This document shows positions 3,069 to 24,517 of a stretch of DNA of 64,000 bases, in pieces. Each line of letters starts with the position of its first letter. Position 1 is the first letter of the stretch. Below the pieces are notes generated by a model. It had not been told where the DNA came from. It worked only from the letters and a program-made list of their open reading frames with translations, and did no database searches. The DNA is from Cellulosimicrobium protaetiae (GTDB taxonomy: Bacteria; Actinomycetota; Actinomycetes; Actinomycetales; Cellulomonadaceae), in the NCBI RefSeq assembly GCF_009708005.2, contig NZ_CP052757.1:620001-684000 (forward strand). Reading direction: 5' to 3'. A program made the position numbers and the translations under genes.

Positions 3069-3206
3069 GGCCGCAGTCCACCGAGGGAGAACCGCAGTCC
3101 CGCCGAAGTAGTACCCCGGTCGGCCGAGGTAGAACCCCGGTCACGCGAGGTAGAACCCTGGTCACGCGAGGTAGAACCGCCGTCCGCTGAGATAGAACCG
3201 CGGTCG
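3062..3206 (+). repeat. 21-nt tandem repeat array A (seven units, forward)
   Basis: Seven consecutive units follow the consensus GAGGTAGAACCNNGGTC plus four variable bases. The period is 21 nt, with one 22-nt step. Unit 1 (AAGGTAGGGCCGCAGTC) contains the TAG stop of the upstream oxidoreductase. The ACCNNGGT part is itself a small dyad. There are no spacers, so this is a degenerate tandem repeat and not a CRISPR. Confidence 0.85.
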
Positions 3207-3489
3207 CTGCCTGACGACGACGGGCGGTCGGCCCGGAGTCGGTCGGTCACCGACCGGCGTGGTCGTGCCCGACGGCGGTCGGTCACCTGCCGGTGCTGGA
3301 GTCGCTTCCGCGCCAGGTGACCGCGGCGCATCCCTGGGGACCGGCCCGGCACGGGCCCCGGCGCGCCCTGGACCCGACACATGGATGAGGCCACTACCGG
3401 CGAGGCCAGGCGAGGCGAGGCGAGGCGAGGACGAGCCTGGCTCCGCGGGCAGTCACCCGGGCTGGCAGAGACCAGGGTGAGACGACGCC
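3207..3489. other. Structured intergenic segment between the arrays
   Basis: No convincing gene. The stretch holds short inverted repeats: GGTCGGT/ACCGACC around 3240-3256, and GGTCACCTG at 3281-3289 pairing with CAGGTGACC at 3314-3322. A run of tandem CGAGG units lies at 3411-3430. Short frames through it look like arginine/glycine shadow translations. Confidence 0.5.
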
Positions 3490-3588
3490 GGGCGGGGTGG
3501 GTGGTGGTGCCGCGTCGTGGCGGGCCTGGCGGGAGCCGCGAGGAACGAGCGGCGGATGGTAGACGCGGCACCACCACCCACCCCGCCC
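3490..3588. repeat. Long hairpin element, copy 1 (27-bp perfect arms, 45-nt loop)
   Basis: Bases 3490-3516 and 3562-3588 are perfect 27-bp reverse complements. The loop (3517-3561), read on the minus strand, matches the loop of a second hairpin at 20939-21045 with about two substitutions. The arms of the two hairpins are different sequences, but each is self-complementary. Array B starts 32 nt to the right. Confidence 0.85.
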
Positions 3589-3620
3589 ACCCAGGGCGAC
3601 CAGACCGCCGTCGGACAAGA

Positions 3621-3744
3621 GAACCAAGGTTCTACCTCGCTCGACCACGGTGCTACTTCGGCCGACCAGGGTTCTATCTCGCGTGACCAGAGTTCTACTT
3701 CGGCGGACTGCGGTTCTATCTCGTGCGACCAGGGTTCTACCTCG
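3621..3744 (-). repeat. 21-nt tandem repeat array B (six units, reverse)
   Basis: Six units of the same 21-nt repeat as array A, read on the minus strand (on the plus strand GACCNNGGTTCTACCTCG). The first unit contains a perfect GAACCAAGGTTC dyad. Arrays A and B are in inverted orientation about 415 bp apart, with the long hairpin between them. No gene ends in this array. Confidence 0.85.
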
Positions 3745-3834
3745 GACTGGCCGGGCTCCAGCCTTGGGAGCGTGACCACGATTTCGCCGTCTTCCTGCGC
3801 CCCGTCCGTCTATCGACGAACTTTCAACTTTTGA

Positions 3835-3862
3835 TTGACACCCGACAGAAGCCTCGTAGGAT
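3835..3862 (+). promoter_or_regulatory. Sigma-70-type promoter for the sugar dehydrogenase
   Basis: TTGACA at 3835-3840 is separated by 16 nt from TAGGAT at 3857-3862. Transcription would start near 3869, giving a leader of about 270 nt before the ATG at 4142. The region is AT-richer than its surroundings. Confidence 0.6.
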
Positions 3863-3877
3863 GACGACCGAGTGGTA

Positions 3878-3891
3878 GGTGAATCTTCACC
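3878..3891. promoter_or_regulatory. Palindrome just downstream of the promoter (possible operator)
   Basis: GGTGAATCTTCACC is a perfect two-fold palindrome about 16 nt past the -10 hexamer, a usual position for a repressor site. The cognate regulator is not identifiable; no regulator gene lies nearby. Confidence 0.4.
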
Positions 3892-4141
3892 GTCTCTCGC
3901 ACAACTTGGCCTGCCCGTGCGCGCCCCGGTGCGCGCGGCGGGACTCTCCTCCCGCACGACGACGTGCAGGGGGACCGCGCTCGACGACGAGACGAGGAGG
4001 ACCACGGACAGGGGGCGTGCAGCCCTCTCACCTGCAGACACACACAGACCGGGCCACCCGATACCCGTCGTTGGCGCGACGGGGGTGACCCGGTCCGGAT
4101 GACCCCTCACAGGCGACTGAACCTCACAGGAGTGGCATCAG

Positions 4142-7100
4142 ATGAAGGATATCGACCGGCGCACGCGCCCGGGCAGACGTGTGACCGCGGCACTCGCCGC
4201 GGGCGCGCTCGCGCTCACGGGCCTCGGCGCCACGATCGCTCCCGCCGTCGCGCACGACGGCATCGACCACGGCACGGAACCGGGCGCGGAGGCCGCGCTC
4301 GACTGGTCCAACTACGAGCGGGTCCTGCTCACGAAGGACGTGGGCGAGCCCATCGACCTCGCGGTCCTGCCGGACTCGCGCGTGCTCCACACGGCCCGCA
4401 ACGGCGACGTCCGGCTCACGGACCCGGCCACGGGCGTGACGCGCGTGATCACCACGCTCGACGTCTACGCGAACTCGGAGGACGGCCTCCAGGGCGTCGC
4501 GCTCGACCCGGACTTCGAGGAGAACGGCTGGGTCTACCTCGTCTACGCGCCGCGCGACGCGGACGGCGACGGCGTCGCGGACACCCCGACGGGCAACGCG
4601 CCCAACTCGCTCCCGGCGGGCGAGGACGAGAGCTACTGGGACCGGTGGGTGGGCGTGAACCGCCTGTCGCGGTTCCAGTGGACGGGCGACACGATCGACC
4701 TGTCCACCGAGCAGGTCGTCCTCGACGTCGAGGTCCAGCGCGGGCAGTGCTGCCACGTCGGTGCGGACATCGACTTCGACGGTGACGGCAACCTCTACCT
4801 GACGACGGGCGACAACACGCCCGCGAGCACCCCGGGCGCGAACGGGTTCGCCCCGAACAACGACGCGCCCGGCATGAACCCGGGTTTCGACTCGCGCCGC
4901 GGCGCGGGGAGCACGAACGACCTGCGCGGCAAGATCCTGCGGATCCACGTCGAGGAGGACGGCTCGTACACGATCCCCGAGGGGAACCTGTTCGCGCCGG
5001 GGACCGAGGGCACGCGCCCGGAGATCTTCGTCATGGGCGTGCGCAACCCGTTCCGCTTCGAGGTCGACCCCGAGACGAACTCGCTCTCCTGGGGCGACTA
5101 CGGCCCGGACGCGACCAAGGCCGTGGCCGAGGCGAACGTCCGCGGTCCCATGGGCCTCGTCGAGTGGAACGTCGTCTCCCTCGACGACCCGCAGAACGCC
5201 GGGTGGCCGTACTTCACGGGCGACAACTTCGCCTATGACGAGTGGGACTTCGAGACGGCGACCCCGGGCGGGCTCTTCGACGCGGAGAACCTGCAGAACA
5301 ACTCCCGGTGGAACACGGGCCTGGTCGACCTGCCGGCACCGCGCCCGGCCACCCTGTACTACGGCGACAACCCGGGCGACCAGCCGTGGGACGAGCTCGT
5401 GAACTTCGGCACCGGCTCGGGCCAGGCCCCCATGGGCGGCCCCGTCTACCACTACGACGCCGACAACCCGTCGACCACGAAGCTCCCGGCCTACTGGGAC
5501 GGCAAGGCGTTCATGGGCGAGTTCTCGCAGGACTACGTCGCGGCGCTCACGGTCGACTGGGAGACCTTCGAGGTCACGCACATCGAGGACTTCCTGCCGA
5601 ACTCGGCGCTCGCCGCGGCCGGTCAGCCGCCGCACGACAACCCGATGGACCTCGAGATCGGCCCGGACGGCTCGATGTACGCGCTGGACTACGGCGACGG
5701 GTTCTTCCGCGCCAACCCCGACGCGGGTCTCTACCGCATCGACTACGTCGAGGGGAACAAGTCCCCGCAGGCGGCGTTCTCCGCCACGCCGTACTCGTCG
5801 TCCGAGGCGCCGCTCGAGGTCTCGTTCGACGCGTCCGCCTCGACGGACCCCGAGGGCGACGCGCTCACCTACGAGTGGGACGTCGACGGCGACGGGACGT
5901 TCGACGCCACCGGGGTCCGGGCCACCCACACCTACACCGAGATCGGTGCCTACACCGCGCGGCTGCGCGTCACGGACGAGAGCGGCCGTCGGGGTCTCAC
6001 CTCGCGCACGATCTCGGTCGGCAACCAGGCCCCCGAGGTCACGATCGAGGCCCCCGGCGACGGGTCGTTCTTCGACTGGGGCCAGGCCGTGCCGTACCGC
6101 GTCACGACCACCGACGCCGAGGACGACGCGAGCGGTGGCGAGGCTCCGACCCCGCACCTCACCGCGGACGACCAGATCGGCGACTGGCTCGCCGACGCGG
6201 TCGGTCACGAGATCCTGGTCGACACGCTCGGCATCGACGCGGAGACGCTCGGCGGGGCGTCGGGCATCACGCTCGCGCAGCTCGTCGCGCTCTCCGAGGG
6301 CTTCGTGACCCAGGCGATGGTCGACGCCGTCCTCGCGGCCTACGCCGCGGCGTTCGAGGACCCGTCGGCGGGCTCGGGCACCGTGTGCTCGCGCGTCGGG
6401 TGGACGTACGGTCTCGGTCACGACGAGCACGCGCACCCCGAGTCGACGGGCACGGGCTGCACGGGCGCGTGGCGGACCGATCCCAACTCGCCCGAGCACG
6501 GTCCCGGCGCGCTGCTCTACGGGGCGGTCGTCGTCACGTACACCGACGGCGGCCACAACGGCCTGCCGCCGGCCCAGGGCGAGGCCACGCTGCGCCTCAA
6601 CCCGAAGGAGCAGCAGGCCGAGCACGCGATCGGTCGCGAGGGCGTCGTCGTCTACGCCGACGAGGGCGCGAGCGGCGGCAACGCCGTCCGCGGCCTCGGC
6701 AGCGGCGACTTCCTGCGCTACGAGCCGGTGAACTTCGCCGGCATCGACGGCGCGGTCGTCCGGGCGAGCGGGGGTGGCGAGGTGCAGCTCCGCTGGGGCG
6801 CGGCCGACGCGGAGCCCTTCGCCACGGCGACGGTCCCGGGCGGTGCGGGCTGGAAGGACGTCGAGATCACGTTCGACGCTCCCGAGGGCTCGGGCACGCT
6901 GTTCGTGACGTCGGCCGACGAGCTCGCCGTCGACGCGATCACCATGGTGGGCGACGGCGTCGCGGACGTCACCGCGCCGACGGTCGAGCACACGCTCGCC
7001 CCCGAGGCGCCCACGGGCGTCGGCGGCGTGTTCAACGAGCCGGTCCGCTTCTCCGTGCAGGCCGCGGACGACGGCGCCCTCGCGAGCGTGCAGTACTCGC

Positions 7101-7858
7101 GCGACGCCGGGACGACGTGGACCAACCTCGCGGCGAACCAGCAGTACGGCGTGACGTTCTCCGAGAACGGCACGTACGACCTGCTGTACCGCGCGACCGA
7201 CACGGGCGGCAACGTCTCCGCGTCCGGCGAGGTGTCGTTCACGATCGACCTCGACGCGCCGGACGCGCCGACGGTCGACTCGGCCACGAAGGTCGTCGTC
7301 GGGTCCGCCCGCGTGACGTTCGGGGCACCGGGCGAGGCCGTGGTGACGGTCACGGGCGAGGGCGGCACGCCGTCGGGCGAGGTCGTGCTCACCTCGGGCG
7401 ACACCGAGGTCGGGCGCGGGACCCTCACCGAGGGCACCGCGACGATCGCGATCGACCCGTCGCTCGCCGTCGGGACGCACACCCTGAAGGCCACCTACGG
7501 GGCCGACACGGTGTTCACGGCGTCGTCCGGGACCGTGCGCCTCACGGTCGCGCAGGCGGGGTCGACGACGACGGGCAGCGTCGCGCCGAACCCGGTGAAG
7601 CCCGCGGTCGCGGCCAAGGCGACGCTCCACGTGGAGTCCGCGACCGGCGTCGTGCCCACGGGCGACGTCCAGGTGACGGTGCGCCGCAACAACGTCACCG
7701 TCGCCTCGCTCACGGGGACGCTCGACGAGGCGGGGAACGTCGTCGTGACGCTCCCGAAGCTCCCGCAGACCGGCACCTACCAGGTGCAGGCCCGCTACCA
7801 GGGTTCGGCCGGGGTCGCCCCCAGCACGCTGAACCTCACACTCACGGTCCGCAGCTGA
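4142..7858 (+). CDS. Secreted PQQ-type sugar dehydrogenase with PKD, CBM6-like and Ig-like modules
   Basis: 1238 residues. A cationic N-terminus and hydrophobic stretch (ALAAGALALTGLGATIAPAVA) form a Sec signal peptide. Residues ~50-540 form a glucose/sorbosone dehydrogenase-type beta-propeller (CCHVGADIDFDGDGNLYLTT, DLRGKILRI, GVRNPFRFEVDP). A PKD domain follows at ~535-625, then an unusual insert (~630-820), a CBM6-like domain (~820-935) and two or three Ig-like repeats. The family oxidises sugars outside the membrane, normally with PQQ; substrate and cofactor are not proven here. AGGAG lies 9 nt before the chosen ATG. No sortase motif or anchor is seen, so it is probably released or bound through its CBM. 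The next gene is an exported isomerase/epimerase, which suggests a shared sugar pathway. Confidence 0.85.
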   Translation: MKDIDRRTRPGRRVTAALAAGALALTGLGATIAPAVAHDGIDHGTEPGAEAALDWSNYERVLLTKDVGEPIDLAVLPDSRVLHTARNGDVRLTDPATGVTRVITTLDVYANSEDGLQGVALDPDFEENGWVYLVYAPRDADGDGVADTPTGNAPNSLPAGEDESYWDRWVGVNRLSRFQWTGDTIDLSTEQVVLDVEVQRGQCCHVGADIDFDGDGNLYLTTGDNTPASTPGANGFAPNNDAPGMNPGFDSRRGAGSTNDLRGKILRIHVEEDGSYTIPEGNLFAPGTEGTRPEIFVMGVRNPFRFEVDPETNSLSWGDYGPDATKAVAEANVRGPMGLVEWNVVSLDDPQNAGWPYFTGDNFAYDEWDFETATPGGLFDAENLQNNSRWNTGLVDLPAPRPATLYYGDNPGDQPWDELVNFGTGSGQAPMGGPVYHYDADNPSTTKLPAYWDGKAFMGEFSQDYVAALTVDWETFEVTHIEDFLPNSALAAAGQPPHDNPMDLEIGPDGSMYALDYGDGFFRANPDAGLYRIDYVEGNKSPQAAFSATPYSSSEAPLEVSFDASASTDPEGDALTYEWDVDGDGTFDATGVRATHTYTEIGAYTARLRVTDESGRRGLTSRTISVGNQAPEVTIEAPGDGSFFDWGQAVPYRVTTTDAEDDASGGEAPTPHLTADDQIGDWLADAVGHEILVDTLGIDAETLGGASGITLAQLVALSEGFVTQAMVDAVLAAYAAAFEDPSAGSGTVCSRVGWTYGLGHDEHAHPESTGTGCTGAWRTDPNSPEHGPGALLYGAVVVTYTDGGHNGLPPAQGEATLRLNPKEQQAEHAIGREGVVVYADEGASGGNAVRGLGSGDFLRYEPVNFAGIDGAVVRASGGGEVQLRWGAADAEPFATATVPGGAGWKDVEITFDAPEGSGTLFVTSADELAVDAITMVGDGVADVTAPTVEHTLAPEAPTGVGGVFNEPVRFSVQAADDGALASVQYSRDAGTTWTNLAANQQYGVTFSENGTYDLLYRATDTGGNVSASGEVSFTIDLDAPDAPTVDSATKVVVGSARVTFGAPGEAVVTVTGEGGTPSGEVVLTSGDTEVGRGTLTEGTATIAIDPSLAVGTHTLKATYGADTVFTASSGTVRLTVAQAGSTTTGSVAPNPVKPAVAAKATLHVESATGVVPTGDVQVTVRRNNVTVASLTGTLDEAGNVVVTLPKLPQTGTYQVQARYQGSAGVAPSTLNLTLTVRS

Positions 7859-7865
7859 CCGTCCA

Positions 7866-7898
7866 CCGGTGGCCCGGGCCGAGCGCCCGGGCCACCGG
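7866..7898 (+). terminator. Strong GC hairpin after the dehydrogenase
   Basis: A 14-bp perfect stem (7866-7879 with 7885-7898) and 5-nt loop, located 7 nt after the stop codon. There is no U-tract, so it may attenuate or protect the 3' end as well as terminate. Confidence 0.55.
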
Positions 7899-7952
7899 CT
7901 CCCCAGACGTCCCCGGGAGCGGTCCCGGGGCGGCTCACCTCGAAGGAGAGAC

Positions 7953-8972
7953 ATGAGTTCACACCACCACCCGACGGTCTCGGCGAAGCCGATGAGCCGT
8001 CGGAACCTGCTCAAGGCGCTCGCGGCGTCGTCGGTCGCCGTGGGCGTGGGGGCCGCCCTCGGGCCGTCGGCCGCGAACGCGCTCGGGGGCGCGCTCCCGG
8101 CGGCGGTCGCGCCGTCGGGCGGGCGCAACCGGCTCGTGCCGGTCAACCGGATCGGGATCCAGCTCTACACGGTGCGCGACAAGGTCAGCTCGCTCGGGTT
8201 CCGTGCCGTGTTCGAGGAGCTCGCCGAGATCGGCTACTCGGAGATCGAGTTCGCCGGCTACACGCAGGGCAGCGTCGGCGCGATCACGGTCCCCGAGATC
8301 CGCCAGCTCCTCGACGACAACGGACTGCGCGCCGTCGGTTCGCACGTCAACCTCAACCCGGGCAACATCGACGCCCAGATCGAGACCGCGCTCGCGCTCG
8401 GCATGCCCCACCTGGGTCAGGGCGGGCCGATCGCGGGCGGGTACGGCGGACCCATCACGAAGGGCCAGTGGCTCGAGGCCTGCGAGACCTGGAACCAGAT
8501 GGGGGAGAAGGCGAGGGCCGCCGGGCTCAAGCTCTACTCCCACAACCACGCCCAGGAGTGGGCGTTCACGACCGACGACCCGAACCAGCGCGTCTACGAC
8601 CTGCTCTGGGACAACCTCGACCCCGAGCTCGTCTTCTTCGAGATGGACGTCTACTGGGCGTACGTCGGGCGCCACCTCTACCCGGGCTTCGAGCCGATCG
8701 ACTACGTCACGCGCGACCCCCGTCGGTTCCCGATCCTGCACCTCAAGGACGGCAAGGCCAACGAGGCCAGCGGGAACGGCTACGACATCATCGAGTTCGG
8801 CGCCGGGAGCATCCCCTACCAGGCGTTCCTCTCCCAGCTGCGCGACCGCGGGCAGCGGTTCGGGCTGTACGAGCAGGACAACGCGGCGTCCGTGGCCGAG
8901 CCCGGAAACGCGCTCAACTCTTTGGGCAACGCCCGCCGCAGCTACGCCGAGATCTCCTCGCTCCGCGGCTGA
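7953..8972 (+). CDS. Exported (Tat) TIM-barrel sugar isomerase/epimerase
   Basis: 339 residues from the ATG at 7953, chosen because AAGGAGAG precedes it; an in-frame start further upstream lacks such a site. The N-terminus carries a twin-arginine signal (SRRNLLKALAASSVAVGVGA). The mature part is an AP-endonuclease-2/xylose isomerase-like TIM barrel (IGIQLYTVRDKVSSLGF near its start; EFAGY; SHNHAQEW; FFEMDVYW; HLKDGK), which has likely metal ligands at Glu, His and Asp. Enzymes of this fold epimerise or isomerise sugars. Some act on 3-keto-glycosides by elimination, which would fit the flanking sugar dehydrogenase and the DUF1080 protein at 15142. Substrate unknown. Confidence 0.85.
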   Translation: MSSHHHPTVSAKPMSRRNLLKALAASSVAVGVGAALGPSAANALGGALPAAVAPSGGRNRLVPVNRIGIQLYTVRDKVSSLGFRAVFEELAEIGYSEIEFAGYTQGSVGAITVPEIRQLLDDNGLRAVGSHVNLNPGNIDAQIETALALGMPHLGQGGPIAGGYGGPITKGQWLEACETWNQMGEKARAAGLKLYSHNHAQEWAFTTDDPNQRVYDLLWDNLDPELVFFEMDVYWAYVGRHLYPGFEPIDYVTRDPRRFPILHLKDGKANEASGNGYDIIEFGAGSIPYQAFLSQLRDRGQRFGLYEQDNAASVAEPGNALNSLGNARRSYAEISSLRG

Positions 8973-9007
8973 CGCGGACCGACCACACACCTGACAAGGA
9001 GCATCAC

Positions 9008-10282
9008 ATGAAGTGGAAGTGGAAGGTCCCGGCCGCCGCGCTGCTCGCGGTGGCCACGGCCACGGCGGTCGCGCCCGCGGCGCAGGCCGCCGACGTCGAC
9101 TGCACCGGCGACCTCGGCGACCAGACGATCAGCGGCGACCTCGTCGTCCCCGGCGGCGCGGACTGCGTGCTCGGCGGCGCGACGATCGAGGGCGACGTGA
9201 TCGTCGACCCCGGCGGCTGGCTCGACGCGACGTCCGTGACCGTGGGCGGCGACGTCGTCGCCACCGACGCGTACGGCGTCCTGCTCGACGGCGCGAGCGT
9301 CGCGGGCGACGTGAGCGCCTACTCGGCGGGCACCCGCGGCGGGTTCCTGTACCTCAACGACCTCACGGTCGGCGGGTCCGTCGCGGCGGGCGGCATCGAC
9401 GTCGAGATCTCCGACTCGACGATCACCGGGTCGCTGCTCACGCAGGCGGCGAGCTACGTCGACCTGCTGCGCACGTCGGTGCACGGCGACGCGACCCTCG
9501 ACGGCTCCGCGTACGGCGTGACCGTCGCGGGTGCGGTGGTCTCCGGCACGCTCACCGTGAGCAACGGTGCGCGCGACCTGCTGGTCGGCGCGACGGCGGA
9601 CGGCGAGGCCGACGAGTGGGGCAACGCGGTCGCGGGCGACCTCGTGCTCAGCGGGAACTCCGGCAACCTGCGCGTCGCGGGCACCGCCGTCCAGGGCACG
9701 GTCCGCCTCGCGGGCAACGACCCCGCCGCCGTCTTCGGCCCCGGGAACACCGCCGGCGCCGTCGACGGCGAGCACACGGGCGAGGAGCCCGGCGCGGCGC
9801 CCGAGGGCGACCAGGCCGTGGCCGTCACCGTCCCGCAGCAGTCCGGCGGGGAGCTCACGTGGTCGCTCGAGGGCTCCTCCAGCCTCGTCGACCTCGGCGT
9901 GGCGACCGAGGAGCTGAGCTACTACCAGGCGCAGGGTCAGCTCGTCCCGGTGCGCGTGCAGGACACGCGCGCGGGCGACCCGGCGTGGTCGGTCACCGGC
10001 CAGGTGTCCGACTTCGTCGCGGGCGGCCAGACCGTCGACGGCAAGCACCTCGGCTGGACGCCGGGCGTCCTCGAGAACGGGGGCGACGCGATCGGCGGCG
10101 ACCACGTCGCGTCCGGGTTCGACGAGGGCGAGGGCCTCAAGCAGGCTCGTACCCTCGCGCGGGCGGACGAGGGCCACGCGCGCGGCGCGTCGGTGATCGG
10201 GGCGGAGCTCGACCTCAAGCTCCCGCTCGACACCCCGCGCGGTACGTACACCGCGACGATCACCCTCACCGCCCTCGGGTGA
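9008..10282 (+). CDS. Secreted WxL-like surface protein with polymer-forming repeat region
   Basis: 424 residues with a Sec signal peptide ending near AAQAAD. Residues ~35-250 repeat short GDV-type strands (ISGDLVV, IEGDVIV, VGGDVVA, VAGDVSA), suggesting a right-handed beta-helix. The C-terminal ~160 residues resemble the WxL-type wall-binding domain: ELTWSLEGSS, then PAWSVTGQVSDF, KHLGWTPGV, and a final LKLPLDTPRGTYTATITLTAL. WxL domains are known in Firmicutes to bind peptidoglycan non-covalently, together with DUF916-type membrane proteins; just such a gene follows at 10464. The role of the beta-helix is unknown. Confidence 0.75.
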   Translation: MKWKWKVPAAALLAVATATAVAPAAQAADVDCTGDLGDQTISGDLVVPGGADCVLGGATIEGDVIVDPGGWLDATSVTVGGDVVATDAYGVLLDGASVAGDVSAYSAGTRGGFLYLNDLTVGGSVAAGGIDVEISDSTITGSLLTQAASYVDLLRTSVHGDATLDGSAYGVTVAGAVVSGTLTVSNGARDLLVGATADGEADEWGNAVAGDLVLSGNSGNLRVAGTAVQGTVRLAGNDPAAVFGPGNTAGAVDGEHTGEEPGAAPEGDQAVAVTVPQQSGGELTWSLEGSSSLVDLGVATEELSYYQAQGQLVPVRVQDTRAGDPAWSVTGQVSDFVAGGQTVDGKHLGWTPGVLENGGDAIGGDHVASGFDEGEGLKQARTLARADEGHARGASVIGAELDLKLPLDTPRGTYTATITLTALG

Positions 10283-10345
10283 TCCACCGAGAGTGACTCA
10301 CCGAGGGTGACCGCACCGCCCCTCCCGTCCCCCGGGAAGGGCGAC

Positions 10346-10380
10346 CGGTCGGCCGCCACGCACGGCGTGGCGGCCGACCG
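10346..10380 (+). terminator. Terminator-like hairpin between the WxL and DUF916 genes
   Basis: 16-bp perfect stem (10346-10361 with 10365-10380) with a 3-nt loop and no U-tract. It lies about 65 nt after the WxL stop. A TACGGT hexamer near 10404 could provide a separate promoter for the DUF916 gene. Confidence 0.5.
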
Positions 10381-10463
10381 GGCCCGCGGCCACGGTCACC
10401 GCTACGGTCGGCGAACCACGGTCGACCGACCCCACCGATCTGCACCGACGAAGGACCGAGCGC

Positions 10464-11684
10464 ATGACCCACCGACGCACCCGCCCCGCCGCGGCACCCC
10501 GCGTGCCCCGCGTCCTCGGCGCGCTGAGCGCGCCCCTGCTCGCGGTCGCCCTGGTGGCCGCGCCTGCTCTCCCGGCGTCGTCGGTCCCCGCGGCGCCCGC
10601 GGCGGTCGAGGAGGCTGCCGGGCCCGTCGTCGGGACCGGCCCCCTCCCCGCCGACGTCGCCCCGGCGCCCGAACCCGAGCAGACCGTGCAGTGGGGCGTC
10701 CGTCCCGGCGACACGGCCCACGGGATCGACCGGCCGAACTTCGCCTACTCGCTCCCGCCCGGCGGCTCGCTCACCGACTCGATCCTCGTGTCCAACCACG
10801 GCGACGCCCCCCTGACCCTCGGCGTCTACGCCGCCGACGGGTACCTCACCGACGACGGCACGCTCGACCTCCTGCCCGCGGGGGAGGAGTCGACGGCGCT
10901 CGGGTCCTGGATCGCGCTCGACGGCGCCGAGGTCGAGATCGCCCCGCAGGAGCAGGCCGAGGTCCCGTTCACCCTCGCCGTCCCCGACGACGCCACCCCC
11001 GGCGACTACGCCGCGGGCGTGGTCTCGTCGCTCGTCGTCGTCGCGGACGACGGCGTGACGACCGACCGGCGCCTCGGCTCGCGCGTGCACCTGCGCGTCC
11101 AGGGCGACCTCGCGCCGGCGCTCGCGGTCGACGACGTGCACCTCGCCTACGACGGCACCCTCAACCCGTTCGCGCCCGGGAGCGCGACCGTCACGTTCAC
11201 CGTGACGAACGAGGGCAACACGCGCGTCGCGCCGAGCGCCGCGGTCCGTGTGGCCGGGCCGTTCGGGCTCGGCGCGACCGCGGCGACCGACGTCGAGGTG
11301 CCCGAGCTCCTCCCCGGGTCCTCGATCGAGCGCACCGTCGAGATCGACCGCGTGTGGCCGCTCGTCCGCGAGACCGCGACCCTGACCGTCGGCGGCGAGG
11401 TCGTCCCGCTGCCCGGGACCGTGCCCGACCCGGAGGTCGTGGTCCGGGGCGTCACGGCGTCGGCCGTCGCCTGGGCCGTCCCGTGGGTCGCGTCCGGCCT
11501 CCTCGCGCTCGTCGTCCTGCTCGTCGTGTGGCGGGTGCGAGCCCGGCGACGTGCGCGTGCCGCTCAGCAGCGCGCGGTGGACGCCGCCGTCGCCGCGGCG
11601 CTCGCGGAGCGCGCCGTCGTCCCGGCCTCGGCGGAAGGCCGTGCTTCGACGGACCTCGGGTCGCCGTCCGCACCGCGGGACTGA
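10464..11684 (+). CDS. DUF916-type membrane-anchored WxL-partner protein
   Basis: 406 residues: signal peptide (ALSAPLLAVALVAAPALPAS), then an Ig-like DUF916 domain starting at VQWGVRPGDTAHGIDRPNFAYSL, with SLTDSILVSNHGDAPLTLGVYAADG as core motif. A second beta-sandwich follows (LNPFAPGSATVTFTVTNEGNT), then one transmembrane helix near the C-terminus (VASGLLALVVLLVVW) and a basic/Ala-rich cytoplasmic tail. In Firmicutes such proteins are encoded beside WxL proteins and bridge membrane and peptidoglycan. Its position directly after the WxL-like gene supports the same partnership. GAAGGA precedes the ATG. Confidence 0.8.
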   Translation: MTHRRTRPAAAPRVPRVLGALSAPLLAVALVAAPALPASSVPAAPAAVEEAAGPVVGTGPLPADVAPAPEPEQTVQWGVRPGDTAHGIDRPNFAYSLPPGGSLTDSILVSNHGDAPLTLGVYAADGYLTDDGTLDLLPAGEESTALGSWIALDGAEVEIAPQEQAEVPFTLAVPDDATPGDYAAGVVSSLVVVADDGVTTDRRLGSRVHLRVQGDLAPALAVDDVHLAYDGTLNPFAPGSATVTFTVTNEGNTRVAPSAAVRVAGPFGLGATAATDVEVPELLPGSSIERTVEIDRVWPLVRETATLTVGGEVVPLPGTVPDPEVVVRGVTASAVAWAVPWVASGLLALVVLLVVWRVRARRRARAAQQRAVDAAVAAALAERAVVPASAEGRASTDLGSPSAPRD

Positions 11685-11693
11685 CCTCTCACC

Positions 11694-12524: not shown

Positions 12525-12650
12525 GGACCCAGGGTCGCCCACGGCGGGGGCTGCCGTCCACGGGTGACGGCTCCGAACGCGCCGCACGCCTGGCGCACGC
12601 CGCACCGGGCTGCTCGTCGTCCCGGTTCGGGCCGGTCCGCGCGGCGCTCG

Positions 12651-13976: not shown

Positions 13977-14021
13977 TTGCCGCAGTCTACGGAGCGGCCA
14001 CCCTGACGAGCCCGGGCGCGG

Positions 14022-14975
14022 TCAGAGGCGGACGGTCCCCGCGATGCACGTGACGCTCGCGCCGCCGACCCAGACCGTCCCGGACCCGTCGCGCTCGACG
14101 TGCACGCGACCGGCCCGGCCGAGCGCCGTGCCCTGGGCGGCGACGTAGCGGTCCGGGAGGCGACCGTCGCGCGTGAGCCACTGCCCGACGACGGCGTTGA
14201 GGCTCCCGGTGACCGGGTCCTCCGGGATGCCCATGGCGAGCGCGAACCCGCGGACCTCGACCGCCGCGCCGTCGGGGCCGCCGTCGTCGCCGTACAGCCC
14301 GGCGACGCCGACGGACAGGTCGGGGTGCTCCACGCGCAGGCGCGACCAGTCGGGCGCGAGGCGGGCGACGCGGTCCGCGGAGTCGAGCAGCACGACGCGC
14401 CAGCCCGGACCGTTGTCGAGCACACGGTGGTCGAGCACGGCGGTGTCGGGGACGCCCAGCGCGGCGACGATCGCCGCGAGGTCGTCGGCCGGGACGGGCT
14501 CGTCCGCGAGCAGGTCGGGTGCGGCGAACGCCAGCCGGCCGGGCTCTGCGGGCTCCGCCTGAGGCGCGTCCGGCCCGACGGCGGCGCTCGCCTCGTGCCG
14601 GATCGTCACCAGGCCGACGCCGCACTCCTGGACGACGACGCCGCCCGCCCGGGGCGTGCCGCCCGCCTCGAGCCACGCGTGGCACGAGCCGAGCGTCGGG
14701 TGGCCGGCGAAGGGGAGCTCGCCGGCGGGGGTGAAGATCCGGAGCCGGTAGTCGGCGCCGGCAGCCTGCCCGGCCGCGGTGGGCGGGAGGAGGAATGTCG
14801 TCTCCGAGAGGTTCGTCCAGCGGGCGAACGCGGCCATCTGCTCGTCCGTGAGGCCGTCGCCGTCGAGCACGACCGCGACGGGGTTGCCGAGGGTCGGGGT
14901 GTCCGTGAACACGTCGACCTGCGCGAACGGCCGGGACGCGGTGCGGTCGGTGATCTCGCCGTGGCGTGCGCTCAT
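14022..14975 (-). CDS. PhzF family isomerase/epimerase
   Basis: 317 residues from the ATG at 14975; the frame runs 35 codons further but without conserved sequence. PhzF hallmarks are present: QVDVFTDTPTLGNPVAVVLD at the start, catalytic glutamate in NLSETTFLL, GHPTLGSCHAWL, and GxxEDPVTGSLNA in the C-terminal half. The family catalyses isomerisation by proton transfer, as in phenazine biosynthesis, but most bacterial homologues have no known substrate and no phenazine genes lie nearby. It is divergent from the DUF1080 protein gene. Confidence 0.85.
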   Translation of the reverse strand: MSARHGEITDRTASRPFAQVDVFTDTPTLGNPVAVVLDGDGLTDEQMAAFARWTNLSETTFLLPPTAAGQAAGADYRLRIFTPAGELPFAGHPTLGSCHAWLEAGGTPRAGGVVVQECGVGLVTIRHEASAAVGPDAPQAEPAEPGRLAFAAPDLLADEPVPADDLAAIVAALGVPDTAVLDHRVLDNGPGWRVVLLDSADRVARLAPDWSRLRVEHPDLSVGVAGLYGDDGGPDGAAVEVRGFALAMGIPEDPVTGSLNAVVGQWLTRDGRLPDRYVAAQGTALGRAGRVHVERDGSGTVWVGGASVTCIAGTVRL

Positions 14976-15035
14976 GGGCCCGAGCGTACGTCGCCGCTGG
15001 TCCTGGCACTTCTGCCGATGAGCAATCGGAAGTTG

Positions 15036-15065
15036 TAGACACGTCGATAGAACGAGGGCTAGCCT
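15036..15065 (+). promoter_or_regulatory. Probable promoter of the PA14/DUF1080 gene
   Basis: TAGACA at 15036-15041 and TAGCCT at 15060-15065 are 18 nt apart. The segment shares GACACNYCGAYAGAA with the promoter at 3835 of the other large secreted sugar protein, in nearly the same place relative to the -10. A small palindrome, GGACTCGAAGTCC, lies at 15110-15122. Confidence 0.4.
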
Positions 15066-15141
15066 GTCCAGCGTTGTCATCGACGGGGCTGGTGGGGGTT
15101 ACGCTCCGTGGACTCGAAGTCCGACCGAGTAAGGAGCAACG

Positions 15142-18100
15142 ATGCTCGAACGCACAAGCCTGCCGGCAGCCCGCCGGATCAGGTACCGACGCGGCGCGGC
15201 CGCCCTCACCCTCGGCGCCGTGGTCGTCGCGGGCTGGGCCGTCCCCGCCGCGGCCGACCTCCCCGAGCAGGAGCCCGGCGTCACGCTGCGGACCTTCCAG
15301 CTCGCGCAGAACCCCGGCGCGGTCTGCACCCTGAAGTCCGGCCAGACCCCCAACGTCGACAAGCTCATGCCGACCATCGACTGGTCGACGGCGGAGCAGT
15401 TCGGCGCTGAGGACAACTTCATCTCCCAGGTCAGCGCCAACCTAACCGTCCCTGCCGACGGCCAGTACCAGTTCCGCGTCACCAACGACGACGGCGCGCT
15501 GGTCTACGTCGACGGCCAGCTCGTCGTCGAGAACGACGGCCCGAACGACTCGACCTCCGTCGAGGGCAGCGCGACCCTCACCGCGGGCGTGCACGACCTG
15601 CGGGTCGACTACTACGAGGGCGGCGACAAGCAGAGGCTCACGCTCGCCTGGAAGACGCCCGGCAGCTCGACGTTCGAGGTCATCCCGACGTCGGCGCTCA
15701 GCACCGAGGCAGGCGTCGTGCGCGTGACCGCGCCCGGCTACAAGTACTGCGAGGGCGCCACCGACACGGCCGGCGACGGCCTGCGCCTCGACGCGGTCAA
15801 CCCCAACTACGACCTCGTCGACCTGCGCCCCGAGGGCTTCGAGCCCAAGGTCTCGGGCCTGGCGTTCACGCCGGACGAGAAGCTCGCCGTCGTGACGACG
15901 GGCGAGGTCAGCTCCGGCGGCTGGCGGCCCGACCCGGTGTCCGGCGAGGTCTACTTCCTCGACGGCGTCACCACGGCGGACGGCCCCGAGGACGTCACGG
16001 CGACGCTCGTCGCGGACGAGCTGCTCAACCCGATGGGCATCGAGGTCGTCGAGGACTCGATCTTCGTCTCGGAGCGGTACCAGCTCACGCAGCTCACCGA
16101 CCCCGACGGCGACGGGTTCTACGACCAGCACACGAAGATCGCGGAGTGGCCCGACGGCGGCAACTTCCACGAGTTCGCGTTCGGCCTGATCCACGACGAG
16201 GACTACTTCTACGTCAACCTCTCCGTGGCCATCAACAACGGCGGCGCGACGACGAACCCGCAGCCCGCGGCCAACCGCGGCACGTCGATCAAGATCGACC
16301 GCGAGACGGGCGAGGTCTCCTACGTCGCCGGCGGCCTCCGCACGCCGAACGGCATCGGCTTCGGCCCGGAGGGCGAGATCTTCGCGACGGACAACCAGGG
16401 CGCCTGGCTCCCGTCGAACAAGCTGATCCACATCCAGCAGGACAACTTCTACAACCACTACACGAACCCGGCCGGGCCGTTCGACGCGAACCCCGTCGCC
16501 CCGCCGGCCGTGTGGCTCCCGCAGAACGAGATCGCCAACTCGCCGGGCAACCCGGTCCTCGTCCAGGACGGTGAGTTCGCCGGCCAGATGCTGCTCGGCG
16601 ACGTCACGTACGGCGGCATCCAGCGCGCGTTCCTCGAGAAGGTCGACGGCGAGTTCCAGGGTGCGGTCTTCCGCCACACCGCGGGCCTCGAGGTCGGTGC
16701 CAACCGCACCATCTACGGCCCCGACGGCGCGATCTACGTCGGTGGTACCGGCGAGGGCGGCAACTGGGGCGAGTCCGGCAAGCTCCGGTTCGGCCTCCAG
16801 AAGCTCGTCCCGGTGAACGAGGACTCCTTCGACATGAAGGAGATGCGCGTGGTCGAGGGCGGCTTCGAGATCGAGTACACCGACCCGGTGTCCGACGAGG
16901 TCGTGGAGAAGCTCGCCGACGCCTACCAGGTCAAGCAGTGGCGCTACGTGCCGACGCAGCAGTACGGCGGCCCGAAGGTCGACGAGGAGCCCCTCTTCGT
17001 CACGGACGCCACGGTGTCCGAGGACCGCACGACCGTCACGCTGCAGATCGACGGCCTCAAGCCCGGCCACGTCGTCTACATCCGCTCGCCGCGTCCGTTC
17101 GCCTCCGCCGAGGGCACCGAGCTCCTCAGCACCGAGGCCTGGTACACGCTCAACTCGCTGCCCGGCTACGTCGCCCCGGCCGACCGCGGCTGGTACGAGG
17201 CGGAGCTGGCGCAGCCGCTCGGCAGCTCGAGCATCGGTTCGGACCACAGCAACTACTCGGGCTCCGGCTTCGCCGCGGGCATGACGAACGTCGGCGCCGG
17301 CCGCACGTTCTCCGTGACCGTCCCCGAGGCGGGCACCTACCCGGTCAACGTGCGCTACGCCAACGGCATCCACCCGTACACGGAGCTGCGTGCCAAGAAC
17401 GTCTCGCTGCACGTCAACGGCGCGGACCTCGGCCAGTGGAACTTCCCCACGACGGGAAGCTGGAAGGACTGGGGCGTGCAGACGCGCGACCTCGAGCTCC
17501 AGGCCGGCACGAACACCATCACGCTCGCGTACGAGACCGGCGACGAGGGCAACATCAACATCGACGTCCTGTCGCTCGGCGAGAACCCGGACATCTGCAG
17601 CCCGGGTGAGGTCGAGGACGGCTACACCGCGATCTACGACGGCACCCTCGCGAGCCTCCAGGAGGGCTGGCGCATGGCCGGTCCGGGTGGCTTCGGCCGC
17701 CAGGACGACTGCTCGATCCGCGGTGCGGGTGGCATGGGCCTGCTCTGGTACGACCAGGAGCTCGGTGACAGCTACAGCCTGAAGCTCGACTGGAAGCTCA
17801 CGAAGGACGACAACGGCGGCGTGTTCGTCGGGTTCCCGAACCCGGGCGACGACCCGTGGGTGGCCGTCAACAAGGGCTACGAGATCCAGATCGACGCGAC
17901 GGACGCCGACGACCGCACCACCGGCGCGGTCTACACGTTCCAGGGCGCCGACGAGGCAGCCCGCGACGCCGCCCTCAAGCCGGTCGGTCAGTGGAACGCG
18001 TACGACATCCGGGTCGAGGGAGACCGCATCCGCATCTACCTCAACGACGTGCTCGTCAACGACTTCACGAGCACCGACCCCGCGCGACTGGTGAACAGCT

Positions 18101-18465
18101 TCATCGGGATCCAGAACCACGGCAACGGCGAGATGGTCGGCTACCGGAACATCCGGTTCAAGGAGCTGACCGACGAGCCGGTCGAGGAGCTCGCGATCTC
18201 GACGACGGTCCAGACCCGCTGCATGGCGGGCAAGGTCTACGTCGCGGTCCGTGCCACGAACGACGACACGGTGCCGGCCGACATCACGCTGACGACGCCG
18301 TTCGGGACGAAGACGGTGGCCGGCGTCCAGCCGGGTGCGTCCGCGTACCAGTCGTTCGCGTCGCGCTCGACCTCGGTCGAGGCGGGCACCGCCCAGGTGT
18401 CCGCGACGGGCGGCGACCTGACGTTCCAGGGGGACGTCGCGTACGACGCCGCGTCGTGCGGCTGA
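15142..18465 (+). CDS. Secreted PA14 / beta-propeller / CBM / DUF1080 (3-keto-disaccharide hydrolase-like) protein
   Basis: 1107 residues with a Sec signal peptide ending near VPAAADLP. Domains in order: PA14-type carbohydrate-binding domain (~45-195; NDDGALVYVDGQLVV), a six-bladed propeller related to the sugar dehydrogenases (~215-600; ATDNQGAWLPSNKLIHI), a CBM6/35-like domain (~670-815) and a DUF1080 domain (~825-1010; DWKLTKDDNGGVFVGFP, ending GNGEMVGYRNIRFKEL). A small C-terminal domain follows. DUF1080 proteins include enzymes that hydrolyse 3-keto-disaccharides, so this fits with the dehydrogenase at 4142 and the isomerase at 7953. AAGGAG lies 7 nt before the ATG. Whether the propeller is catalytic is unknown. 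Confidence 0.85.
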   Translation: MLERTSLPAARRIRYRRGAAALTLGAVVVAGWAVPAAADLPEQEPGVTLRTFQLAQNPGAVCTLKSGQTPNVDKLMPTIDWSTAEQFGAEDNFISQVSANLTVPADGQYQFRVTNDDGALVYVDGQLVVENDGPNDSTSVEGSATLTAGVHDLRVDYYEGGDKQRLTLAWKTPGSSTFEVIPTSALSTEAGVVRVTAPGYKYCEGATDTAGDGLRLDAVNPNYDLVDLRPEGFEPKVSGLAFTPDEKLAVVTTGEVSSGGWRPDPVSGEVYFLDGVTTADGPEDVTATLVADELLNPMGIEVVEDSIFVSERYQLTQLTDPDGDGFYDQHTKIAEWPDGGNFHEFAFGLIHDEDYFYVNLSVAINNGGATTNPQPAANRGTSIKIDRETGEVSYVAGGLRTPNGIGFGPEGEIFATDNQGAWLPSNKLIHIQQDNFYNHYTNPAGPFDANPVAPPAVWLPQNEIANSPGNPVLVQDGEFAGQMLLGDVTYGGIQRAFLEKVDGEFQGAVFRHTAGLEVGANRTIYGPDGAIYVGGTGEGGNWGESGKLRFGLQKLVPVNEDSFDMKEMRVVEGGFEIEYTDPVSDEVVEKLADAYQVKQWRYVPTQQYGGPKVDEEPLFVTDATVSEDRTTVTLQIDGLKPGHVVYIRSPRPFASAEGTELLSTEAWYTLNSLPGYVAPADRGWYEAELAQPLGSSSIGSDHSNYSGSGFAAGMTNVGAGRTFSVTVPEAGTYPVNVRYANGIHPYTELRAKNVSLHVNGADLGQWNFPTTGSWKDWGVQTRDLELQAGTNTITLAYETGDEGNINIDVLSLGENPDICSPGEVEDGYTAIYDGTLASLQEGWRMAGPGGFGRQDDCSIRGAGGMGLLWYDQELGDSYSLKLDWKLTKDDNGGVFVGFPNPGDDPWVAVNKGYEIQIDATDADDRTTGAVYTFQGADEAARDAALKPVGQWNAYDIRVEGDRIRIYLNDVLVNDFTSTDPARLVNSFIGIQNHGNGEMVGYRNIRFKELTDEPVEELAISTTVQTRCMAGKVYVAVRATNDDTVPADITLTTPFGTKTVAGVQPGASAYQSFASRSTSVEAGTAQVSATGGDLTFQGDVAYDAASCG

Positions 18466-18473
18466 GCTGAGAA

Positions 18474-18552
18474 CCCGGGGCGGGCGGCGTGAGCCGTCCG
18501 CCCCGGGACGGGACGGGCGGGGGCGGCAGCACGAGCCGACCCCGCCCGTCCC
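18474..18552 (+). terminator. Two tandem GC-rich hairpins
   Basis: Hairpin 1 pairs 18474-18488 with 18493-18507 (one mismatch, GTGA loop). Hairpin 2 pairs 18510-18522 with 18540-18552 perfectly (13 bp). They separate the DUF1080 gene from the MMPL gene and probably terminate the former. Confidence 0.6.
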
Positions 18553-18762
18553 GTCTCACCCCCTGTCTCCACCTCGGTGACCCGAGGTGCGCCCCTCGCA
18601 CGGGCGGAGCGTGGTCCGACGGCGCTCCCACCCTCGCGTAGGGTGCTCACCCCACGTCCTCGCTCCCGTGGGGCCGTCTCCCGCACGACTCCTCGTGCAC
18701 GACCTCCCGTACGACTCCCGCGAGACGTTCCTCGACGAGTCCTGACGAGTGGAGCCACGCCC

Positions 18763-21081
18763 ATGGCGCTCGGACGCCTCCTGCACCGGACCGGACGGTT
18801 CGCCGCGCGCCGCCGCGGCGTCGTCCTCGGCGTCTGGGCGGTCCTTCTCGTCCTCGGCGCGGTGCTCGGCGGAGCCGTCTTCGACAAGACGACCGACGTC
18901 GAGCCCGCGCCGCCCGGCAGCGCGTCGGCCCTCGCGGCCGAGCGCCTCGACGAGCTCGAGCCCGAGGGCGAGACCGTCGTCGCCGTCCTGTCCGGGCGCG
19001 ACTACTTCTCCACGGACCTGATCGCCCAGGCCAGCGACGTGCTGCACGGCGTCCGCGCGATGCCGGGCGTCGTCGAGGTGTTCGACGCCTACACCGGCGG
19101 TGGCCTCATCGCCGACGACGGCCAGGGCTCGCTCGTGATCGTCGAGCTCGACCCCGCGCTGTCGGACGACGAGGCGCTCGCCCTCGCGCACCAGGTCTCC
19201 GACGCGCTCCACACCATCGACACCCCCGAGGTCCTCGTCGGCGGTGCCCTGCTCGCGGAGGAGGCGTTCGTCGACCAGGCGATCACCGACGCCGCGGTGG
19301 GGGAGGGCGTCGCGATCGCGGTGCTGCTCGTCGTGCTCGTGATCGTCCTCGGCGGCCTGCGCGCGGGCCTGGTCCCGCTGCTGTCCGCGCTCGCGGCGAT
19401 CGCGGTCGCGCTCCTCGTGCTCAGCGGGCTGCTGGGCGTCGTCCCCGTCAACGAGTTCGCCGTGAACGTCGTGACGCTGCTCGGCCTCGGCCTCACGGTG
19501 GACTACTCCCTGCTCGTGCTCGCGCGCTTCCGCGAGGAACGCGCCGAGCACCCGGGTCTCCCGCTCGACGAGCTGGTCGGGCGCACGCTCGCCACCGCCG
19601 GGCGCGCCGTGCTCGCGTCGGGGCTCGCCGTCGCGATCGCCCTGACCGGCCTGCTCCTGCTCGGCGACTCGCTGCTCTCCGGCATGGCCGTCGGGGGCGC
19701 GATCGTCGTGCTCGTCGCGACCGCCGCGGGGCTCACGCTCGTGCCCGCGCTCGTCGCGACGTGGCACCGCGCCATCCCCGCCCCGGGCGTGCGGACGTGG
19801 TCCCACCCGTGGACCGGGCGCGGCGGCGCCGGCACGCTCGGCCGCCTCGCCCGCACCGCCCAGCGCCACGCCGTGCTCGTCACGCTCGGCGCGACGGCCC
19901 TCCTGCTCGCGCTCGCCGCACCGCTCGGCTCGATGACGCTCGGCAGCTCCGAGGTCCACTCCCTGCCCGCCGACGCCGAGGCGCGCCTCGCCGCCGACGC
20001 GTCCACGTCGCGCTTCGCCGACCTCGGCGTCACCCCGATCACCGTCCTCGTCGAGGCACCCCGCGGCGACGAGGCCGCCTCCGCCTACCTCGACCAGGTC
20101 GCGGCCCTGCCCGGCGTCGAGGACGCCATGCAGGACACCGACTACCCGTCCGAGGTCCTCGTCGTCGACGTCACGCCCGACGTCGGCGAGGGCGGCGACG
20201 CTACCGGCGCCGCGGCCCAGGACCTGCTGCACGCGATCCGAGCGATCGACACCGCAGGCCTCGACGTGCACGTCGCCGGCCCGGCCGCCGAGGTCGTCGA
20301 CACCCAGGAGCACCTCGCGCAGCGCCTCCCGCTCGCCGCGGGCGTCGTCGTGCTCGCGACGTTCGCGCTCCTCTTCCTGCTCACCGGCTCGCTCGTCGTG
20401 CCGCTCAAGGCGCTCGTGCTCAACCTGCTCACGCTCGCCGCGACGCTCGGCGTGCTCGTCTCGGTGTTCCAGCACGGCGTCGGCGCGTCGCTGCTCGGGT
20501 TCGAGCCGTGGGGCGCGCTCGACGTCACGACGCCGCTGCTCATCGGCATGCTCGTGTTCGGCCTGTCGACCGACTACGAGGTGTTCCTCCTCGCGCGCAC
20601 CGCCGAGGAGTGGCGCGCCCGCACCCCCGGCGAGGACCCGCGCGCCGCGAACGACCGGGCCGTGCTCCGCGGTATCACCGCGACCGGCCCGGTCGTCACG
20701 ACAGCGGCCGTCGCCATCGGCATCGTGTTCCTCGGCTTCGCGGCGGGGCAGCTCGTCGCGATGAAGGAGGTCGGCGTCGGCATGGCCGTCGCCGTGCTGC
20801 TCGACGTGACCGTCGTGCGGGGGCTCCTGCTCCCCGCGACGATGACGCTGCTGGGGCGGTGGAACTGGTGGCCTTCGTGGCGATCGGCCCGTCCGGAGCC
20901 GACCACGGGCGAGACGGAGCCGGGCAGGGCATCCGTCCGGGCGACGGCGGAGCGGGGGCGGGGCGGGTCGACCATCCGCCGCTCGTCCCTCGCGGCTCCC
21001 GCCAGCCCCGCCACGACCCGCCCCACCCCCGCTCCGCCGTCGCCCTCCGCTTCGGCCGCACCGTCCGCTCCACCGAGGTAG
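18763..21081 (+). CDS. MMPL/RND-family membrane transporter
   Basis: 772 residues from the ATG at 18763, preceded by a TGGAG site; the open frame further upstream is not conserved-looking. It has the MMPL layout: one N-terminal helix, a periplasmic domain (~60-190), a helix bundle with GLGLTVDYSLLVLARFREER, a second periplasmic domain and a second bundle with GLSTDYEVFLLARTAEEW. Family members export lipids or hydrophobic compounds using proton force. The last ~50 residues (from about TAERGRGGS) are low-complexity Pro/Ser/Ala encoded by a long hairpin repeat. The TAG stop lies in a 21-nt repeat unit, so the tail looks like recruited repeat DNA. Confidence 0.85.
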   Translation: MALGRLLHRTGRFAARRRGVVLGVWAVLLVLGAVLGGAVFDKTTDVEPAPPGSASALAAERLDELEPEGETVVAVLSGRDYFSTDLIAQASDVLHGVRAMPGVVEVFDAYTGGGLIADDGQGSLVIVELDPALSDDEALALAHQVSDALHTIDTPEVLVGGALLAEEAFVDQAITDAAVGEGVAIAVLLVVLVIVLGGLRAGLVPLLSALAAIAVALLVLSGLLGVVPVNEFAVNVVTLLGLGLTVDYSLLVLARFREERAEHPGLPLDELVGRTLATAGRAVLASGLAVAIALTGLLLLGDSLLSGMAVGGAIVVLVATAAGLTLVPALVATWHRAIPAPGVRTWSHPWTGRGGAGTLGRLARTAQRHAVLVTLGATALLLALAAPLGSMTLGSSEVHSLPADAEARLAADASTSRFADLGVTPITVLVEAPRGDEAASAYLDQVAALPGVEDAMQDTDYPSEVLVVDVTPDVGEGGDATGAAAQDLLHAIRAIDTAGLDVHVAGPAAEVVDTQEHLAQRLPLAAGVVVLATFALLFLLTGSLVVPLKALVLNLLTLAATLGVLVSVFQHGVGASLLGFEPWGALDVTTPLLIGMLVFGLSTDYEVFLLARTAEEWRARTPGEDPRAANDRAVLRGITATGPVVTTAAVAIGIVFLGFAAGQLVAMKEVGVGMAVAVLLDVTVVRGLLLPATMTLLGRWNWWPSWRSARPEPTTGETEPGRASVRATAERGRGGSTIRRSSLAAPASPATTRPTPAPPSPSASAAPSAPPR
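20939..21045. repeat. Long hairpin element, copy 2 (32-bp arms, 43-nt loop)
   Basis: Bases 20939-20970 and 21014-21045 are reverse complements over 32 bp with one mismatch. The loop (20971-21013) matches the loop of copy 1 at 3517-3561 (reverse strand) with about two substitutions. The arms are unlike those of copy 1, yet pairing is kept. It lies inside the MMPL coding region, 27 nt before the first 21-nt repeat unit. Confidence 0.85.
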
Positions 21082-24424: not shown

Positions 24425-24442
24425 CTGGTACAGTAGTACCAG
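24425..24442. promoter_or_regulatory. 18-bp palindrome in the VOC/SMR divergent region
   Basis: CTGGTACAGTAGTACCAG has 7-bp perfect arms and a 4-nt centre, as expected of a TetR- or MarR-type operator. It lies 20 nt before the guanidine-III aptamer. No regulator gene is adjacent. Confidence 0.45.
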
Positions 24443-24461
24443 AGTTGCGCTACCGCGACTC

Positions 24462-24502: not shown

Positions 24503-24517
24503 AGAGAGGTTCTTGTC

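Follow-up and report, generated by a model that had tools for sequence, protein, structure and literature searches.

A multi-copy family of hairpins with a near-fixed core and changing but paired arms in Cellulosimicrobium protaetiae: candidate mobile palindromic elements

Introduction

Short palindromic sequences scattered in many copies have been described from several bacterial groups. The Rickettsia palindromic elements (RPE) are described as palindromes of about 100-150 bp, present in many copies, inserted into reading frames that they leave unbroken and conserved at orthologous positions (PMC3767692). The repetitive extragenic palindromic sequences (REP) are presented as dispersed palindromes, mostly extragenic, which are thought to be non-autonomous mobile DNA (PMC3733652). 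Here we analyse two hairpins in a 64-kb stretch of the genome of Cellulosimicrobium protaetiae (positions 620001-684000 of contig NZ_CP052757.1, inside the 4.78 Mb genome; hereafter the window), together with the dispersed copies related to them. Both consist of a nearly invariant core of about 45 nt enclosed by long, perfectly or almost perfectly paired arms, the sequences of which are unrelated. We regard them as members of a family of short palindromic interspersed elements, mobile and non-autonomous, that would be recognised through their folded core, a reading to which we assign a probability of roughly 0.6.

Results

Two hairpins with a common core and unrelated arms

Copy 1 lies on the forward strand. 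The two arms of its outer stem P1 (3490..3516 and 3562..3588) are 27 nt long and 100% complementary in the inverted-repeat search, with a spacer of 45 nt that comprises the 5' side of an internal loop (GTGGCGGGCCTGGCGGGA, 3517..3534), an inner hairpin P2 of the form GCCGC-GAGGAACGA-GCGGC (3535..3553) and the 3' side of the internal loop (GGATGGTA, 3554..3561). Both loop sides are near-invariant in the alignments A1 and A3 described below, and P2 varies with its pairing kept and its loop conserved. Copy 2 is read on the reverse strand, with a 5' arm at 21014..21045 and a 3' arm at 20939..20970 (32 nt, 97% complementary, spacer of 43 nt); its core, delimited by the inverted-repeat and core-pattern searches (20971..21013), contains the internal loop, P2 (20978-20996) and GGATGGT. 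It is placed antisense in the C-terminal tail of an MMPL-family gene (18763..21081, forward strand; custom gene caller and Pfam MMPL), the frame of which stays open. A 32-nt core pattern with up to three mismatches matched the window twice, at 3529-3560 on the forward strand (0 mismatches) and at 20971-21002 on the reverse strand (1 mismatch), and 100 shuffled versions of the window gave a mean of 0.00 matches, which rules out chance palindromes. The initial annotation had reported near-identical cores in opposite-strand hairpins with differing arms, and this description is borne out, including the coordinates, arm lengths and degree of pairing; over their full length the cores show, by eye, two to three differences.

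The complete element measures about 80-120 nt and on its G-rich strand has the order P1, 5' loop, P2, cap, P2', 3' loop, P1', corresponding to P1, GTGG-N(1-2)-GGG-N-CTGGCGGGA, P2, GAGGNACGA, P2', GGATGGTA, P1'. Written with U, the conserved core is GUGG-N-GGG-N-CUGGCGGGA, a covarying inner stem, the loop GAGGNACGA and GGAUGGUA. P1 extends over 19-31 bp in 45 of the 46 copies measured by a simple rule and over 32 bp in copy 2, so that the arms are complementary elsewhere too; the 46th copy (L043) has a changed closing pair and falls outside this rule. P2 comprises approximately 4-7 bp, and its loop, C-GA-G-GNA-C-GA-G, would be compatible with tandem sheared G.A pairs topped by a GNA triloop. 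Some other genomes have a longer hairpin or a CYTG loop above the GA letters, which are retained, and the copies of Actinomyces and those of hrpA type carry a GAA/GA internal loop in the arms beside the core. In L097 (near 1500-1665) and L183 (near 2319) a related extra hairpin, AGTGAGCTTGCGAACG, stands within the 5' internal loop. Allowing G-quadruplex folding left the predicted structures of five sequences unchanged, which neither proves nor excludes a G-quadruplex.

A multi-copy family and its type A composite

BLAST with copy 1, the core pattern and the covariance model R1 agree on a multi-copy family in the C. protaetiae genome. The core pattern was found at 40 places, 35 of them with 0 mismatches and two, two and one with one, two and three mismatches, respectively. 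The covariance model recovered at least 59 loci (E <=1e-4, opposite-strand twins set aside), a lower bound as 150 of 12616 candidates were scored; the two hairpins of the window are thus far from being the only copies.

One arm sequence, that of copy 1, is common to 35 of the 59 copies (type A), and the remaining 24 have other arms. Type A copies form the centre of a composite. Inward 21-nt units stand to the left of 32 copies out of 35, and every one of the 35 has inverted units to its right; the corresponding figure for the non-A copies is one of 24 on each side. In copy 1, Tandem Repeats Finder placed the left array at 3063..3205 (forward strand) and the right array, inverted relative to it, at 3623..3744 (reverse strand); a further array of the same repeat, CGAGGTAGAACCNNGGTC, occupies 22388-22481. 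Genome-wide, 461 units were counted at up to two mismatches (reversed control, 0), also away from hairpins. The proposed rule that some 30 nt separate each copy from a 21-nt array therefore applies regularly to type A, copy 1 included, and not to the other copies; copy 2, next to which lies an IS30-like gene, has a single unit at a distance of 28 nt. A GGCGA tandem repeat (3399-3435) also adjoins copy 1. A stretch of 111 nt is 99% identical between positions 1542886-1542996 and a gene near 803 kb encoding an RNase_H_2/AAA protein, showing that the element was copied together with its arms.

Arms change while pairing is kept

Covariation was assessed in two alignments. A1 was built from 21 out of 45 distinct own copies. 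In this alignment 93.0% of cells are paired (70.5% after shuffling), 28 of 36 pairs show double changes and the covariation score is 0.506, against 0.112 for shuffled and at most 0.142 for slid controls. A3 comprises 38 copies from several genera, the set of 45 references having been deliberately reduced by L115, L116, L117, L118, L121, L122 and L131; seven further loci yielded no reference. Here 80.5% of cells are paired (58.2% after shuffling), with double changes in 20 of 21 pairs and a score of 0.509 (shuffled, 0.167; slid controls, at most 0.220).

The same behaviour is seen at orthologous positions, some sites being vertically inherited with paired changes in their arms. Among 53 orthologous comparisons, anchors were readable in 22 of type A and 26 of non-A copies, the latter derived from 12 own loci and hence not independent. 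Over the 520 arm cells of the non-A comparisons, in flanks that are on average 87% identical, 69 of the 97 changed pairs are Watson-Crick double changes, the others being 5 other doubles and 23 singles; independent change would yield about 14 doubles of any kind. About half of the paired doubles (34 of 69) are of the transversion type, without a possible G:U step, and changed pairs are not significantly clustered (p 0.07 and 0.14; 14 comparisons). In the type A comparisons, 419 of 440 arm cells are unchanged, although the flanks are 92% identical; the arms of type A are therefore subject either to conservation or to homogenisation. The earlier statement that pairing is kept while sequence changes is correct by A1, A3 and the orthologous non-A doubles, and fails for the 35 type A copies, the arms of which hardly change. 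By a simple rule, 192 of 210 extracted copies have stems; among the other 18, several contain an internal loop, an insertion or masked letters, and the rest have broken or mismatched arms.

Residual mismatches, counted symmetrically after exclusion of the 18 copies without a simple stem (138 distinct arm pairs, forming 53 clusters), are more often G:T than A:C (66 and 26 distinct cases, p=3.7e-5), and 24 clusters lean towards G:T against 7 towards A:C (p=0.003). This excess supports folding of the G-rich strand, which seems to be the folding one, as RNA or single-stranded DNA alike; no strand preference would be expected if the process acted only on double-stranded DNA.

Placement, loss and inversion

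Placement was determined with a custom simple gene caller. Fifty intergenic copies have both neighbours called, 23 at convergent, 26 at tandem and 1 at divergent sites, to be read against a small baseline, the 24 gaps of 100 nt or more in the window, of which 15 are tandem, 9 are divergent and none is convergent. The orientations at tandem sites, 16 versus 10, show no significant bias (p=0.33). Seven of the 59 own copies lie within called reading frames, five antisense and two sense. The element is inserted between Pfam domains in LigD, the RNase_H_2/AAA protein, biotin carboxylase and UvrD, and inside DUF3418 in an HrpA-like protein (L206); members of this protein's cluster in L112, L117, L137 and L172 also carry it. 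Three predicted proteins (L142, L201 and L218) contain a copy coded in sense, which in each of them is read in one and the same frame as a similar AKGVAGLAGATRGTSGADGSPS-like peptide.

The RNase_H_2/AAA gene was tracked across 17 genomes. The element is kept in seven of them (C. protaetiae, G001, G003, G008, G011, G012 and G016; for G012 according to the orthologous comparisons, the gene-wise alignment having no anchors there), with arm changes mostly paired. G006 has a clean deletion between TGCG repeats and G004 a deletion between CCTC repeats; remnants persist in G013 and G014, nothing was found in G002, G007, G009, G010 and G015, and for G005 the matches listed did not include the gene. 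The clean empty site in G006 probably represents a loss.

Elements inverted relative to collinear flanks were found at LigD (L047 versus L170 and L207), in Actinomyces urogenitalis (L140 versus L214) and in G202, a genome inferred to belong to Actinomyces (L109 versus L226). These come from a survey in which 42 of 501 comparisons, redundant and some of them likely independent insertions, were flipped, and four pairs were aligned.

Two sites have, in a relative, a different plain hairpin in place of the element. At L167 (6840-6990) and L060 relatives have another hairpin, with GTCGAGCACGAC arms, where C. protaetiae has the element; it may represent a second hairpin family. A third may be represented in L198 (Isoptericola), where a stretch aligned to another gene holds a pair of roughly 50-nt palindromes with GAGTTGTCAGGC arms. 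Finally, in L094, L197 and L114 the element, or a diverged relative of it, stands between two genes that, from their sequence ends, we take to be nrdE and nrdF (class Ib ribonucleotide reductase), at a site common to three genera.

Distribution

All 16 searched congeners gave matches (12 to 84 per genome, opposite-strand twins included), as opposed to none of eight members of other genera of the family and one of 14 genomes from other families of the order, where the match (L072) has broken arms. An order-wide search matched 29 of 396 genomes, C. protaetiae included; with 9 candidates scored per genome, rare or weak copies can escape it, and some weak matches (e.g. L119) are without the full core. 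The core pattern was found in at least 120 stretches of named genomes. The genera among the matches listed are Cellulosimicrobium, Isoptericola, Luteimicrobium, Oerskovia, Antribacter, Pseudactinotalea and Actinomyces, with three odd records in addition; matches also occur in metagenome-assembled genomes of Gemmatimonadaceae (L159, flanks unpaired) and Jatrophihabitans (L169), and in a Sphaerisporangium-labelled record (L139). In a sample of 396 genomes of the phylum, searched with model R2 under stricter filters and with 11 candidates scored per genome, matches were confined to C. protaetiae and G093, with none outside the order. A loose pattern matched 47 of 396 genomes, yet its reversed control matched about 44 (at most 2 each), so single loose matches are not evidence; the counts for C. 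protaetiae, G098 and G054 were 52, 20 and 12, respectively. Carriage by phages or plasmids was rejected, as viral contigs gave no exact core match, and plasmids and phages no BLAST match of copy 1.

Search for a mobilising enzyme and for known families

No Y1 transposase (PF01797) was detected in 24 genomes, 20 of which gave matches to the element, with 5 of 14 control genomes positive; mobilisation of the RAYT/IS200 kind was rejected accordingly. Reverse transcriptase (RVT_1) is absent from the C. protaetiae genome and present in 3 of the 24 genomes overall, by which mobilisation of retron or group II-derived type was likewise set aside. The 25 largest clusters of 780 predicted proteins near copies include no prominent mobile gene and no autonomous parent element, apart from an IS30-like fragment at five loci representing three own places. 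The corresponding gene beside copy 2 (21120-22337; HTH_38, Pfam), which we take to be of the IS30 family, lies between 21-nt units, and related predicted fragments of 157 amino acids occur near copies in L002 and L029.

At the gathering threshold, Rfam 15 contains no match to the element; a low-threshold scan of the loci tested gave one, to a miRNA family (31.9 bits; gathering 150), so that membership of a known Rfam family was discarded. The open full-text literature yielded no paper on such an element among the matches listed, and papers elsewhere may exist. The initial annotation knew of no described element with this structure; these searches agree with it as to structure, but similar behaviour is known from RPE and REP.

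Two other parts of the window gave above-threshold Rfam matches, a Guanidine-III riboswitch (24439-24505, forward strand) and a SAM riboswitch (29591-29693, reverse strand), and a perfect 15-nt tandem repeat lies inside a predicted gene (61520-61571).

Discussion

Both hairpins of the window would thus belong to a family of palindromic interspersed elements of about 80-120 nt, mobile or recently so, and non-autonomous. A trans-acting factor would recognise the folded G-rich single strand, as RNA or single-stranded DNA, by its internal loop and P2 cap. The outer stem would mainly need pairing, so that its sequence could drift in most lineages, and template switching at the hairpin would probably supply some of the paired changes. 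Any host function would be secondary. With no Y1 transposase in 24 genomes, no reverse transcriptase in the host and no prominent mobile neighbour in the largest protein clusters, the mobilising enzyme would not be a Y1/RAYT transposase in the genomes tested, and the mover may be unseen or gone. Going one step further, the family may exemplify a class of mobile nucleic acids read by the internal fold of one strand, with arms free as long as they pair and a mover that is neither Y1 nor reverse transcriptase; this we put forward tentatively, the fold being perhaps an asymmetric G-rich loop and a capped inner stem with tandem G.A pairs.

Several observations weigh against a mobile element. Transposition was not observed, and no clean target-site duplication appeared among the listed cases of 108 core-less flank pairs, many of which are tandem-array artefacts. 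The almost fixed type A arms do not behave as free arms, 18 of 210 extracted copies are without a long stem by the simple rule used here, no mobile gene but the IS30-like fragment is prominent beside the copies in the 25 largest protein clusters, and the site common to three genera at the nrdE/nrdF-like genes could mean a host function. That function might be exercised by a structured RNA used by the host, in which P1/P2 transcripts bind a host protein or ligand at the internal loop and, for example, protect or process mRNA ends. Two covarying stems around invariant unpaired segments are typical of such RNA, and the preference of mismatches for one strand, the sites near gene 3' ends and the site shared between genera would all fit; the free orientation relative to genes, the antisense insertions in reading frames, the patchy distribution with none of eight family neighbours matched, and the losses and remnants at one gene do not, and we consider this explanation rather unlikely. 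Bidirectional transcription terminators between genes would account for the frequent convergent sites (23 of 50) and for the two sites where a relative has a plain hairpin instead. In the own copies displayed, however, neither arm is followed by a T-run on inspection by eye, copies lie within reading frames, and a conserved loop is not known to play a part in termination; terminators are very improbable.

It is also conceivable that structure is not selected at all, template switching keeping the palindromes perfect and gene conversion among copies preserving the core. The mechanism has been described for hairpins and inverted-repeat spacers (PMC8794818; PMC8604942, in the portions consulted), and both the paired doubles barred from a G:U path and the in-place inversions speak for it. 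As a sole cause it appears improbable: the asymmetry of G:T over A:C is not expected from it, P2 varies in pairs and the loops are fixed across genera, which would be beyond the reach of gene conversion, and changed pairs lack significant clustering. Because of the transversion-type doubles and the inversions, template switching nevertheless probably contributes part of the paired change. The initial annotation had offered selection of the hairpin or its copying by template switching as alternatives; the G:T excess argues for the former and the doubles and inversions for the latter.

The family provides more than 100 natural hairpins (192 with stems) that have a fixed centre and, in many cases, arms that vary in sequence without losing their pairing, some of them at orthologous positions. 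With such a collection one can test by what means short palindromic repeats spread when no transposase is known, and what shares selection and template switching have in compensatory hairpin change; it also adds a family of inserts that lengthen proteins between domains.

Comparison with known systems

Judged by published description, the RPE of Rickettsia appear most alike in behaviour, being palindromic repeats inserted in frame, as is the element in LigD, UvrD, biotin carboxylase, the RNase_H_2/AAA protein and the HrpA-like protein. They belong to another phylum, whereas the present family is found in Actinomycetota and has a fixed centre, differing arms, two covarying stems and one preferred strand. 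With REP and REPIN it shares dispersal as palindromes mostly outside genes; REPs, however, are 20-40 bp long with a GTAG or CGTC end tag, and here the element spans about 80-120 nt with internal conservation, such letters occurring only internally, beside the core, in part of the copies, and the Y1 transposase of the REP/REPIN-RAYT system was not detected in the 24 genomes tested. The terminal repeats of miniature inverted-repeat transposable elements (MITE) are common to their copies and match a transposase. The present elements are likewise short and dispersed with inverted repeats, and type A comes closer, its 35 copies having arms in common and 21-nt arrays in inverted arrangement; the arms of 24 of the 59 own copies are unlike type A, however, and no transposase partner was found.

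Structured RNA motifs of the Rfam type resemble the family in covariation around conserved unpaired segments, but no Rfam 15 family matched above threshold and the clusters inspected contain no telling recurrent class of neighbour genes. Hairpins maintained by template switching are similar in paired arm changes and spacer inversion, although template switching alone does not explain a near-fixed core in dozens of dispersed copies. Integron attC sites also vary in arm sequence, but the conserved part is apical here, not basal, and intrinsic terminators differ by the T-run that, by eye, does not flank the own copies displayed. We file the family as a new variant among short palindromic interspersed elements, distinct from RPE, REP and MITE.

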